64,000 nt of DNA, taken from Martelella alba (GTDB lineage Bacteria > Pseudomonadota > Alphaproteobacteria > Rhizobiales > Rhizobiaceae). A program made the translations under genes and the position numbers. Numbering within the stretch: the stretch's first letter is position 1; every line of letters begins with the position of its first letter. The notes beneath the pieces were generated by a model. That model ran no database searches. It saw nothing but the letters and a program-made list of their open reading frames with translations, and had not been told where the DNA came from. The stretch is taken from positions 62,001-126,000 of the forward strand of contig NZ_VHLG01000001.1 of NCBI RefSeq assembly GCF_006516955.1, given 5' to 3'. Below are positions 16,810 through 21,215 of the stretch, in pieces.

Positions 16810-17200
16810 TCGCTGCCTGTTTCCGACCTTGGTGCATTGGGCGGGACACGAGCACATGGACGGCGCGAAATGGTTTCGACGCGCCGTCGACGATTTGATC
16901 GCATTTTGGAATTTGAATATCTGGTAAAGTTCCATAATCCGTCTTATGTGATTTCTCATATGACCTAGGGTACATTCCACTCCTACGAGCAAGAAACTGT
17001 CGTCGGAGATGGCAAACTGTCCCCCATAGATCGACCTCTCGCAGAGATCGGACACACCCATATGGCTAGACCAAGCTGCAAAGTGGGATTCGGCATGAAC
17101 TCGTACAGTCAGATGGGATCATTGACGCCTGTGACCGCATTGACATCTTTGCCAGACAGTCGCATTGCTTTCGCCCATCTCATTGGAGCGGTGTCGGATC
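16810..17200. other. 391-base intergenic stretch with a long hairpin; no gene seen
   Basis: No convincing reading frame was found on either strand. Just after the IalB-like gene, 16859-16888 forms a 9-bp perfect stem (GACGGCGCG with CGCGCCGTC) whose loop can extend the stem through CGAAA and TTTCG; there is no T tract. The remainder (16890-17200) has unremarkable composition and presumably carries the promoter of the P-loop gene. Confidence 0.6.
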
Positions 17201-17752
17201 ATGACCAGCCTCAAGTCTCTTGGCGAGCGCATTGTCATTCTCGGGCCTTCAAATGCTGGAAAGTCGACGCTGGCTGTCGCCCTGTCGCGAAAGCTCGACC
17301 TGCGTGTCATTCATCTCGATCAGCTCAGACATTTGCCGCATACGGACTGGCAGCAGCGATCCGATGATGAATTCGCGGCTCTCCATGATGCTGCCATTCT
17401 TGGAGATCGATGGATCATCGAGGGGAATTATACCCGCCTGATGCCGCAGCGGCTGGATCGCGCGACCGGCGCTATCCTTCTGACGTCAAGCCGCTGGCTG
17501 CGGCTCTGGCGCTATTTCAAGCGGACGCTGATCAATCGCGCCGATCGTGCCGGTCATCTCGATGGCGCGAAAGACAGCGTCAAATGGGCAATGATTGATT
17601 GGGTCATGGTGAAAAGCCGCAACAGCGACAAGCGCTATGCGGCCATTCTGCATGACAGCGGCATGCCGCTGGTGGAGTGCCGCTCGGCGCGGGCGCTGGC
17701 GGCACTTTACCGGGACTGGGATCTTTCCGGACCCCGCCTGCCCAAGCGGTGA
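17201..17752 (+). CDS. Small P-loop NTPase, adenylate kinase/FlaR-like
   Basis: 183-residue soluble protein. Walker A GPSNAGKST lies near residue 15, followed by LRVIHLDQL and WIIEGNYTRLMPQRLDRA, the layout of the family annotated as AAA ATPase, adenylate kinase or DNA topology modulation protein. The Arg-rich helix around RWLRLWRYFKRTL may act as a lid. The true substrate is unknown; it lacks the full lid and NMP domains of real adenylate kinase. The start at 17201 is chosen because the conserved fold begins at once; an upstream TTG-initiated extension is less likely. It is convergent with tgt, 15 bases apart. Confidence 0.8.
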   Translation: MTSLKSLGERIVILGPSNAGKSTLAVALSRKLDLRVIHLDQLRHLPHTDWQQRSDDEFAALHDAAILGDRWIIEGNYTRLMPQRLDRATGAILLTSSRWLRLWRYFKRTLINRADRAGHLDGAKDSVKWAMIDWVMVKSRNSDKRYAAILHDSGMPLVECRSARALAALYRDWDLSGPRLPKR

Positions 17753-17767
17753 GGCGGTTGGGTACAA

Positions 17768-18901
17768 TCAGACAGGGTCGATATCGCCCCTCGCCCACAT
17801 TTCCTGGGTTTCAGCCATGAAGTCCTCAAACCGGCCTTCAGCGATGGATTCGCGGATACCCTTCATAAGGTATTGATAATACGCCAGATTTGTCCATGTG
17901 AGCAGCATGCCGCCGAGCGATTCATTGGCGCGGATCAGGTGATGCAGATAGGCGCGGGAATAATCGCGCGTAGCCGGGCAATCGCTCTCCTCGTCCAGCG
18001 GGCGTAAATCCTCGGCATGACGGGCATTGCGAAGATTGACCTTGCCACGCCGCGTATAGGCAAGACCATGCCGCCCTGCCCGCGTCGGCATGACGCAATC
18101 GAACATGTCGATACCACGGGCTACCGACTTGATGATGTCGTCCGGCGTGCCGACGCCCATCAGATAACGCGGCTTGCTGGTCGGCAGAACCGGCAGGGTG
18201 ATGTCGAGCATCTCGAGCATGACGTGCTGGGGTTCGCCGACGGCCAGTCCACCGACGGCATAGCCCTTCAGATCGAGATCGGCGAGGCCCTGTGCCGAGC
18301 GGATGCGCAGCGCGCCGATATCACCGCCCTGAACGATGCCGAACATGGCCTTGCCTGGCTGCGTGCCGAAGGCAACGCGGCAGCGCTCGGCCCAGCGCAA
18401 CGACATTTCCATCGAATTCTCGATTTCCTTCGGGCCCGCCGGAAGGCGCACGCATTCATCAAGCTGCATCTGGATATCGGACCCGAGCAGCCCCTGAATC
18501 TCGATCGAGCGCTCCGGGCTCATCTGGTGAATGCTGCCATCGACATGGGAGCGGAAGGTGACGCCCTTTTTCTCGTCGATCTTGCGCAGATCAGACAGCG
18601 ACATGACCTGAAAACCGCCGGAATCGGTGAGGATTGGATGCGGCCAGCGGATCAGCGAATGCAGGCCGCCAAGCCTGGCCACCCGTTCGGCACCCGGCCT
18701 GAGCATCAGGTGATAGGTGTTGCCGAGAATGATATCCGCGCCAAGATCGCGCACCTGATCGAGATACATCGCCTTGACTGTACCGGCTGTGCCGACGGGC
18801 ATGAAAGCGGGGGTGCGGATCTCGCCGCGCGGCATGGTGATCTTGCCAAGACGCGCCTCGCCGTCTGTTGCCTTCAGGTGAAACTGGAATTCTTCGCTCA
18901 T
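17768..18901 (-). CDS. tgt: tRNA-guanine transglycosylase (queuine tRNA-ribosyltransferase)
   Basis: 377-residue enzyme that swaps guanine-34 for preQ1 in GUN-anticodon tRNAs. Visible: [13 protein letters not shown] with the general-base Asp, the substrate region VGGLAVGE, and [14 protein letters not shown] with the nucleophile Asp. Oddity: the zinc site (C-x-C-x2-C plus a later His in E. coli and Zymomonas) reads [18 protein letters not shown] and [10 protein letters not shown], so only one of four ligands remains. Catalytic residues are intact, so activity is expected, but the C-terminal subdomain must be stabilised differently. The ATG overlaps the queA stop by 4 bases (ATGA), the standard queA-tgt coupling. 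Confidence 0.95.
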
Positions 18902-19968
18902 CGGTCTTTCCGCATCAGGAGGCTGGAATCGCCATAGGAATAAAAACGATAGCCCGATGCGATGGCATGGGCATAGGCGGCCTGCATGGTTTCAAGGCCT
19001 GAAAAAGCCGAAACCAGCATGAAAAGCGTCGATTTCGGCAGATGGAAATTGGTCATCAGCGCATCCACCGCCTTGAAGCGGTAGCCGGGCTGAATGAAGA
19101 TGCCGGTTTCGCCATGCCATGACGGGATTGTGCCATCGTCGCGTGCGGCGCTTTCCAGCAGGCGCAGCGATGTCGTGCCAACGGAGACAATCCGTCCGCC
19201 GCGTGCCTTCACCGCGTTGAGTGCTGACGCCGTTTCGTCGGTGATATACCCACGTTCGAAGTGCATCTTGTGATCGTCCGTGTCATCGGCCTTGACCGGC
19301 AGGAACGTCCCCGCTCCGACATGCAGCGTGACGAAATGGCGCTCAATCCCGGCCTTATCCAGCGCTTCAAACAGCGACGGCGTGAAATGCAGCCCCGCCG
19401 TTGGTGCAGCAACGGCGCCGCGCTCACGGGCATAGATCGTCTGGTAATCGTCGCGGTCGCGGCCGTCTTCTGCACGCTTTGAAGCAATATAGGGCGGCAG
19501 CGGAATATGGCCGACGGCCATCAGCGCCTCGTCCAGCGCGCCACCGCGTTCTGAAAAGGTCAGGACAACTTCGCCGGCCTCGCGCTTTTCCGTCACCTCG
19601 GCTTCAAGCTGTGCGCCGTCCTTTTGGAACACGAGCCGGTCACCTTGCTTGATCCGCTTGCCCGGTTTGGCAAAGGCATGCCAGACATTGTCGGCGCTTC
19701 TGAGGTGAAGGGTCGCAGAGACGGGCGTTTCCTGAGCCCCTGCCCTGATCCGAAAGCCTTCCAGCTGAGCCGGGATGACCTTGGTGTCGTTGAACACCAG
19801 CGCATCGCCAGCCCGCAAGAACTTCGGCAGATCGAAGACCTGATGGTCGGAGAGCATCGGTTCACCGCCGGGTTCAACCAGCAGCAGCCGGGCGCTGTCT
19901 CGGGGATTGGCAGGGCGAAGTGCAATCCGCTCATCCGGAAGGTCGAAATCGAACAGATCGACGCGCAT
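18898..19968 (-). CDS. queA: S-adenosylmethionine:tRNA ribosyltransferase-isomerase
   Basis: 356-residue enzyme converting preQ1-tRNA to epoxyqueuosine-tRNA using the ribosyl part of SAM. Visible: the N-terminal [61 protein letters not shown], and the C-terminal YGDSSLLMR. Length and motifs are normal. The start at 19968 ([11 protein letters not shown]) matches the family; a start 7 codons upstream is possible but less typical. It lies 81 bases downstream of the cytosolic cyclophilin gene and overlaps tgt, so queuosine modification genes are translated together. Confidence 0.96.
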
Positions 19969-20049
19969 GGGTATGTCCTTCAAATTCAAAAACCCGCCGG
20001 CGCCGTTTCAAGCGCCGGTCGGGCCGTATTCAGGCGGTCAATACGCCAC

Positions 20050-20559
20050 TCAAAGGTCGGCTTCAACCTTGACCGAGATGATGTGGTCAGGGTTGCGGAC
20101 GGGTTCGCCGCGCTCGAACTTGTCGACGACATCCATGCCTTCGACAACCTTGCCCCAGACGGTATACTGCTTGTCGAGCCAGGGAGCATCGGTGAAGCAG
20201 ATGAAGAACTGGGAGTTGGCCGAGTTCGGGTTCTGTGAGCGGGCCATCGAACATGTGCCACGCACATGGCGTTCGGCGGAGAATTCTGCAGCGAGATCCG
20301 GCTTGTCCGAACCGCCCATGCCGGCGCGGCCGGGATGGTAGCTTGAGGATTCCTTGTTGCCGAACTGTACATCGCCGCCCTGGGCCATGAAATCGGAAAT
20401 CACGCGGTGAAACACGACACCGTCATAGGCGCCTTCGCGGGTCAGTTCCTTGACGCGGGCGACGTGCAGCGGCGCGACGCCGGGCAGGGTCTCGATGATG
20501 ATCTTGCCCTTTGAGGTTTCCATGATCAGGGTGTTTTCGGGGTCTCTGGTCTCAGCCAT
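20050..20559 (-). CDS. ppiB: Cytosolic cyclophilin-type peptidyl-prolyl isomerase
   Basis: 169-residue cyclophilin catalysing cis-trans isomerisation of X-Pro bonds. The catalytic FHRVISDFMAQGGD and the QFFICFTDAPWLDKQYTVWG region are visible. There is no signal peptide, so it should act in the cytosol. The start at 20559 (MAETRDPENTLIMETSKGKI) follows a GGAGAGG-type ribosome-binding site; a long upstream extension was rejected. It is one of two adjacent cyclophilin genes, 40 bases after the exported one, in the conserved coaD-ppi-ppi-queA-tgt order. Confidence 0.93.
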   Translation of the reverse strand: MAETRDPENTLIMETSKGKIIIETLPGVAPLHVARVKELTREGAYDGVVFHRVISDFMAQGGDVQFGNKESSSYHPGRAGMGGSDKPDLAAEFSAERHVRGTCSMARSQNPNSANSQFFICFTDAPWLDKQYTVWGKVVEGMDVVDKFERGEPVRNPDHIISVKVEADL

Positions 20560-20599
20560 TGTCCTCTCCTTGTGGCGTTTCCTGTTTTTCAGGATTCTA

Positions 20600-21172
20600 T
20601 CAGTTGCTCTCAACCGTCGCAGTGACGATACGATCGGGGTCCTCGACCTTGCCGTTATCGGCCTGGCTGCCCTTCTTGATCTTGTCGACATTGTCCATGC
20701 CGTCGATGACCTTGCCGATCACCGTATACTGGTTGTCCAGGAAGGGCGCATCCGCAAACATGATGAAGAACTGCGAATTTGCCGAATCCGGGTCCTGTGC
20801 GCGGGCCATACCGACGATACCCCGTTCATAATGAATGTCGGAGAATTCAGCAGGAAGGTCCGGCTGTTTGGAGCCGCCCATGCCAACGCGGGTATCATCG
20901 AAACCCTTGTCCATATTGCCGTATTCAACGTCGCCGGTCTGGGCCATGAAGCCATCGATCACGCGGTGAAAGGCAACGCCATTGTAGGCACCCTCTTCCG
21001 CCAGTTCCTTGACGCGTGCGACATTCTTCGGTGCAACATTATCGTAGAGCTCGATCGTGACCGGGCCCTGGCTGGTCTGGAGCTTCAACAGGTCCTTGGC
21101 GTCCTGAGCGAAGGCGGAACCGGCCATGGCCAACATCAGGCCGGCAGCGGCAAGGCTTGCAAATTTCTTCAT
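20600..21172 (-). CDS. ppiA: Periplasmic cyclophilin-type peptidyl-prolyl isomerase
   Basis: 190-residue exported cyclophilin. The signal peptide MKKFASLAAAGLMLAMAGSA ends at AFA before QDAKD. The cyclophilin core has FHRVIDGFMAQTGD and QFFIMFADAPFLDNQYTVIG. The start at 21172 is preferred because GGAGAA lies just upstream and it gives a standard signal peptide; an ATG five codons earlier is in frame. It is a paralogue of the adjacent cytosolic enzyme, suggesting a tandem duplication with one copy gaining export. It lies 43 bases after coaD. Confidence 0.92.
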   Translation of the reverse strand: MKKFASLAAAGLMLAMAGSAFAQDAKDLLKLQTSQGPVTIELYDNVAPKNVARVKELAEEGAYNGVAFHRVIDGFMAQTGDVEYGNMDKGFDDTRVGMGGSKQPDLPAEFSDIHYERGIVGMARAQDPDSANSQFFIMFADAPFLDNQYTVIGKVIDGMDNVDKIKKGSQADNGKVEDPDRIVTATVESN

Positions 21173-21215
21173 TGCATTCTTCTCCATTTGAGGGTGACTG
21201 TCGCGCTCAAGCAAT

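Follow-up and report, generated by a model that had tools for sequence, protein, structure and literature searches.

The tgt gene of Martelella alba raises the question of whether a bacterial tRNA guanosine(34) transglycosylase (Tgt) can remain an ordinary enzyme after losing its structural zinc site. A zinc domain has been named as one of two hallmarks of TGTs (PMC6165067), and it has been stated that "TGT require zinc for activity" (PMC9508795). We analyzed the gene within a window of 64,000 nucleotides of the M. alba genome (Table 1). Its product scored 470.8 bits against TIGR00430, the NCBIfam equivalog model of Tgt (curated cut-off 306.75), and 502.7 bits against PF01702. It gave the single PF01702 match in the whole genome; the gene is single-copy, and this search revealed no second, zinc-type copy. 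The query retrieved at least 590 loci, of which the best 80 were kept; the nearest of those fetched was tgt of Martelella radicis, with 88% identity. The queA and tgt frames share 4 bases, the last of queA and the first of tgt. The gene encodes an intact bacterial Tgt.

Upstream of queA-tgt and on the same strand are a cytidylyltransferase-like gene and, just upstream of the pair, two cyclophilin-type isomerase genes whose listed frames overlap. A gene for a small P-loop protein is convergent with tgt; its product resembles "DNA topology modulation protein" models, with 90.9 bits, well under the cut-off of 215.

Table 1. Features of the tgt region, in coordinates of the window
Feature	Position	Strand	Remarks
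tgt, tRNA guanosine(34) transglycosylase, without zinc ligand set	17768-18901	minus	377 aa, open frame
queA, next step of queuosine pathway	18898-19989	minus	TIGR00113 and NF001140
Ser306 codon	17984-17986	minus	Place of zinc ligand Cys318 (Z. mobilis Tgt)
Cys308 codon	17978-17980	minus	Place of Cys320; sole ligand kept
Thr311 codon	17969-17971	minus	Place of zinc ligand Cys323
Thr337 codon	17891-17893	minus	Place of zinc ligand His349
His278 codon	18068-18070	minus	Z. mobilis Asn290; fixed in main zinc-less clade
Two adjacent cyclophilin-type isomerase genes	20050-21214	minus	
Small P-loop protein	17165-17752	plus	

Zinc-type Tgt enzymes carry C-x-C-x2-C and a later His, a pattern that the Martelella gene lacks. 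In a HMMER alignment to the Zymomonas mobilis enzyme, S306, C308, T311, and T337 stood opposite C318, C320, C323, and H349 (query number plus 12). The initial annotation had read Ser, Cys, Thr, and Thr at these places and had reported two intact catalytic Asp motifs. Both readings were confirmed: the four codons fall inside its interval 17875-17990, the two peptide strings that it quoted (of 14 and 10 letters) occur in the Tgt translation, and D93 and D268 are present. Its count of three lost ligands out of four is true of the Martelella gene, and relatives keep zero, one, or two.

We then asked how far the loss extends, using three sets of loci, all from Pseudomonadota. The first comprised 80 named-genome loci found with query-derived patterns (the best 80 mentioned above), a choice that favors close relatives. 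The second comprised the 30 loci of the phylum that scored highest against the family, a choice that favors zinc-type genes. For the third, a family search located tgt in 131 genomes, of which 128 main matches and 2 weak ones were fetched. The 128 genes were chosen from 383 genomes with a family match; 75 of the 133 matched alphaproteobacterial genomes were taken, and the others mostly at one or two per family. Kept out of the counts were the two weak family matches (L240 and L241, with no match to the query), a broken gene with an unreadable zinc site (L239, from G050, where tgt is split into two frames), and two genomes with the gene in pieces (G215 and G077); the gene of G178 was already in the set as L010. 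The 112 zinc-less rows include the window gene (L001) and its genome copy, and L001 is absent from the 111 distinct zinc-less genes.

The zinc-ligand set was missing from all 13 genomes of the window's family and all 20 of its order in the family search (33/33 together), and from 64 of the 80 query-found loci, the remaining 16 being C,C,C,H. Since the same loss recurs in these two sets, neither chance nor sequencing error accounts for it. With the order assigned by record title, none of 58 Hyphomicrobiales loci had C,C,C,H. The zinc-less fractions in other orders among the query-found loci were 1/1 for Geminicoccales (a metagenome-assembled genome, MAG), 0/3 for Acetobacterales, 0/6 for Rhodospirillales, 0/1 each for Rhodobacterales and Puniceispirillales, and 5/10 for titles without an order. 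The initial annotation had supposed that related rhizobial proteins are alike and that the feature could be clade-wide; this was right and too narrow. When the alignment across Alphaproteobacteria that it had proposed was run, the loss also appeared in 13 of 42 family-search genomes from other alphaproteobacterial families, with 5/5 in group f12, 3/3 in f18, 2/2 in f24, 1/1 each in f31 and f33, and 1/3 in f15. The rest of the phylum contained no zinc-less gene among 52 readable family-search genomes (the 53rd has the broken gene) or among 82 readable genes overall. All 30 top-scoring loci of the second set were C,C,C,H, and C,C,C,H genes numbered 127 in total. Judged from these alignments, the loss of the zinc-ligand set is real, heritable, and clade-wide, and it appears in an otherwise normal enzyme.

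The losses followed a restricted pattern. Fifteen of the 111 distinct zinc-less genes kept no ligand, 78 kept one, and 18 kept two; none of the 111 kept three. The replacements at the zinc places were of few kinds and recurrent: among the 112 zinc-less rows, position 306 was Ser in 101, position 308 was Cys in 93, position 311 was Ala, Ser, or Thr in 107, and position 337 was Asn in 57 and His in 22. Five Bradyrhizobium rows had Trp at 308 and Ile at 337. A partly reduced site, S-x-C-x2-S...H, was present in groups outside Hyphomicrobiales and in some Rhizobiaceae. Because this form is still seen in several families, it suggests that the outer cysteines were lost first. The loss would then have been stepwise, with the two outer cysteines going first, then the His in Hyphomicrobiales, and in some lines finally the middle Cys.

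To trace the history, trees were built without the four zinc columns. The 126-row tree grouped 73 zinc-less rows with one C,C,C,H row (L140; support 98), and in the 89-row tree 47 zinc-less rows formed one side of a branch, with L140 outside (SH-aLRT 98.7). A single loss is improbable, as the trees need five (126 rows) or four (89 rows) changes of zinc label. Nearly all zinc-less genes were placed in one clade, with probably at least one separate loss besides. Such a loss is probably represented by L183 (G317, group f15), which has Glu-Ser-Asn-His at the zinc places and nests among C,C,C,H relatives. The S,C,A,N site of L095 comes from a MAG titled Geminicoccaceae, a genome outside Hyphomicrobiales. 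Joining L095 to the main clade was not rejected and gave the better tree of those compared (p-AU 0.596); L095 may reflect a mis-binned contig, a transfer, or a separate loss. L140 itself (G032, group f14) has a full C,C,C,H site, and its change of place between the two trees may reflect misplacement, transfer, or regain. The gene L146, from the 1.2-Mb genome G359, sits on a long branch with an uncertain position; its tgt has one in-frame TAA.

A varying number of kept ligands (zero to two) could mean that the zinc site is decaying in a Tgt no longer under selection, and decay of tgt has been reported for some Bartonella (PMC11570991). We consider this explanation most improbable in view of the conservation of the rest of the enzyme and the published function in Sinorhizobium meliloti (PMC3568095) and Bartonella henselae (PMC11570991). 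The window gene has an open tgt frame, as do the genes fetched from its order and family. Catalytic residues D93 and D268, which correspond to the Z. mobilis pair D102/D280, were fixed in all 108 rows of the main zinc-less clade. The preQ1-pocket residues D148, G218, and V221 were likewise found in 108/108 rows and C150 in 107, and K43, R274, and R277, which from Z. mobilis work we take to be tRNA contacts, were invariant in the same 108 rows. The Martelella enzyme thus has the preQ1-type pocket (C150, G218, and V221, with Cys at the place of Z. mobilis 158 and the GGLAVG motif); GGLAVG has been named as the preQ1-type site (PMC11570991).

The C-terminal part, which would hold the zinc, showed no sign of decay either in pairwise identity or in tree lengths. 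At matched divergence its identity was 0.684 among zinc-less rows versus 0.600 and 0.603, and the ratio of its tree length to that of the rest was 1.52 (73 rows) versus 1.42 (41 rows). A stronger constraint on this part, suggested by the pairwise identity, was unsupported by the tree lengths and was dropped.

Altered tRNA or dimer handling, which had been offered as another consequence of the loss, found little support, as the tRNA contacts were invariant and the dimer hot spot mostly kept. An aromatic hot spot has been described for the Z. mobilis dimer (PMC5395182). Within the main clade (108 rows) its residues Y330 and H333 were invariant, W326 was replaced by Tyr in 99 rows (Tyr is also found here in most Tgt sequences of the sample), and F92 was Phe in 79, Leu in 25, including the Martelella gene, and Met in 4. 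In addition, the tRNA-stem contacts K285 and K292 of E. coli Tgt (PMC13416341) are Asn and Ala in Martelella. Zinc-type alphaproteobacterial rows had Asn in 44/45 and Ala in 20/45 at these places, so, on this comparison, the two changes do not clearly track zinc.

Next, we considered whether zinc or another metal may still be bound through C308, the clade-specific H278, or the His320-His321 pair. Cys at 308 in 93 of the 112 zinc-less rows, His at 278 in all 108 main-clade rows, and a His at a former Cys place in three rows (L080, L091, and L157) are consistent with this idea. A scan for Cys or His newly conserved in the zinc-less group singled out H278 (97% against 4%); C174 (61% against 22%) and H88 (38% against 2%) were conserved in part, and there was no new Cys/His cluster. 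His at 278 occurred in only 2/45 zinc-type alphaproteobacterial rows and 1/82 other rows. At this position the three zinc-less rows that lie outside the main clade carry Thr, and H278 therefore seems better explained as a marker of the main clade than as a replacement ligand. Moreover, Cys is absent from all four places in 19 of the 112 rows, most of which still have H278, and His320-His321 is equally conserved in zinc-type rows and hence not new. Taken together, a metal bound in one of these ways is improbable.

We also looked for compensating changes. A swap of Trp between positions 308 and 336 was strongly associated when descent was ignored (Fisher p 5.7e-11); on the tree it came down to 5 independent pairs with a median sign-test p of 1, and it was rejected. 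Mutual-information lists, which likewise took no account of descent, were set aside. No compensating change was thus shown after correction for descent.

The predicted structure agrees with an intact fold. The AlphaFold2 model of the Martelella protein is a Tgt barrel with a C-terminal subdomain; its mean pLDDT was 91.3, with the blocks of residues 301-360 at 93-98. Its best fold matches were Z. mobilis Tgt structures, on which 370 residues superposed with an rmsd of 1.4. For a Bradyrhizobium form that keeps none of the ligands, the model had a pLDDT of 92.4. AlphaFold2 models no metals, and a confident model is no proof of metal-free stability. Zinc-ligand mutants of E. coli Tgt are reportedly impaired, which argues against a loss of the site without compensation; the E. 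coli enzyme is called a zinc metalloprotein in a paper title (Chong et al. 1995). Two observations count against an ordinary Tgt: complementation by the B. henselae enzyme was partial, and hot-spot residue F92 is Leu in the Martelella gene.

In our best reading, the Martelella protein is very probably an ordinary preQ1-inserting bacterial Tgt in which a metal-free core has replaced the structural zinc site, the metal-free state being inferred. The initial annotation had held that the C-terminal subdomain must fold without zinc. Here, the ligands are gone, no replacement cluster was found, and the fold is predicted to be intact; the zinc-free state is the best interpretation of these results rather than a necessity. 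Two helices, the short one that follows the former CxCxxC and the long C-terminal one (residues 328-354 in the model), would pack without zinc, the contacts being made by small polar or hydrophobic side chains at 306, 308, 311, and 337. The usual set at these positions is Ser, Cys, Ala/Ser/Thr, and Asn, and that of Bradyrhizobium is Ser, Trp, Ala/Thr, and Ile. Homodimer formation and base exchange would proceed as usual.

The genome also provides a pathway context for this enzyme. It encodes QueF, QueG, QueA, a PF02592 (QPTR-type) transporter, and one PTPS-family gene. QueC was not found: the best TIGR00364 match reached 27.5 bits (cut-off 150.3), and the sole PF06508 match, with 22.0 bits at a cut-off of 22, covers 59 positions inside a 563-residue frame that we read by eye as NAD synthetase and therefore rejected as QueC. 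No QueC exceeded the TIGR00364 cut-off in the 13 genomes of the genus (that of the window, G000, and G398-G409), versus 11 of 41 in the whole set. Because QueC is missing and QueF, QueA, QueG, Tgt, and the transporter are present, Martelella Tgt probably works on imported preQ0 or preQ1.

As to its cause, the loss of the ligands might be part of a general saving of zinc that freed the pathway of the metal since these bacteria often lack it. FolE1, QueD, QueC, and TGT are listed as zinc requiring, and some bacteria possess a queD2 under Zur control (PMC9508795); the absence of QueC from the Martelella genome fits as well. Yet S. meliloti keeps queC (PMC3568095), and RecR of the Martelella genome, the sole other zinc protein examined, retains the four cysteines of its zinc finger; therefore, zinc sites are not lost everywhere. 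Zinc saving is an unlikely cause in our estimation, and it is compatible with a metal-free Tgt, as it concerns only why the ligands were lost.

A metal-free Tgt could have a wider consequence, which we propose tentatively and hold to be doubtful: in much of the Alphaproteobacteria, the queuosine step may have been permanently uncoupled from zinc. Tgt would have become metal-free before Hyphomicrobiales and several families split, with at least one further loss, and queuosine (Q) would be kept under zinc starvation or thiol stress. If so, such stress should lower Q only in bacteria with a zinc-type Tgt. Whether metal supply is linked to queuosine in tRNA in this way could be tested by an exchange of alleles, and zinc-less enzymes offer natural controls for the role of zinc. 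The large clade without the ligands includes well-studied symbionts and pathogens, although Tgt is described as a zinc enzyme. Zinc should therefore be assigned to Tgt by homology only with caution, and we treat the zinc domain as the mark of a zinc-type subset and not of the whole family. Among open-access papers, searched by listings and passages, we found none that mentions the ligand loss, and the word "zinc" is absent from the main texts of PMC3568095 and PMC11570991.

Those two papers nevertheless describe function in genera with a zinc-less Tgt. In S. meliloti, preQ1 rescued mutants in queC and queF but not those in tgt and queA, and nitrogen fixation was defective when queF, queC, or tgt was mutated (PMC3568095). 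B. henselae Tgt partially complemented an E. coli queDF tgt mutant supplied with preQ1 (PMC11570991). We found S,C,A,N at the zinc places in Sinorhizobium kostiense (L048) and in three Bartonella (L068, L071, and L075), not B. henselae. As the published species are congeners of those aligned here, the comparison indicates by analogy that zinc-less Tgt enzymes function.

The enzymes of Bartonella and Sinorhizobium are among the closest known parallels to that of Martelella: those of the four species aligned here are zinc-less, and function has been published in both genera. The pathways differ in that B. henselae is described as lacking queA and queG (PMC11570991), and the M. alba genome has both. 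Z. mobilis Tgt (PDB 1pud, 1ozm, and others; the Martelella protein is 59% identical to 7apl) shares the fold, the catalytic Asp pair, the preQ1 pocket, and most of the dimer hot spot; it differs in its zinc ligands C318, C320, C323, and H349, a set that Martelella does not have, and in Asn290 and Phe92, which are His278 and Leu83 in Martelella. E. coli Tgt belongs to the same family, and its nucleophile D264 corresponds to Martelella D268 (PMC13416341). Human QTRT1 has the barrel and a homologous C-terminal domain, as Martelella Tgt does; it differs in that it inserts queuine as one partner of a heterodimer and has three Cys and one His as zinc ligands (PMC6165067).
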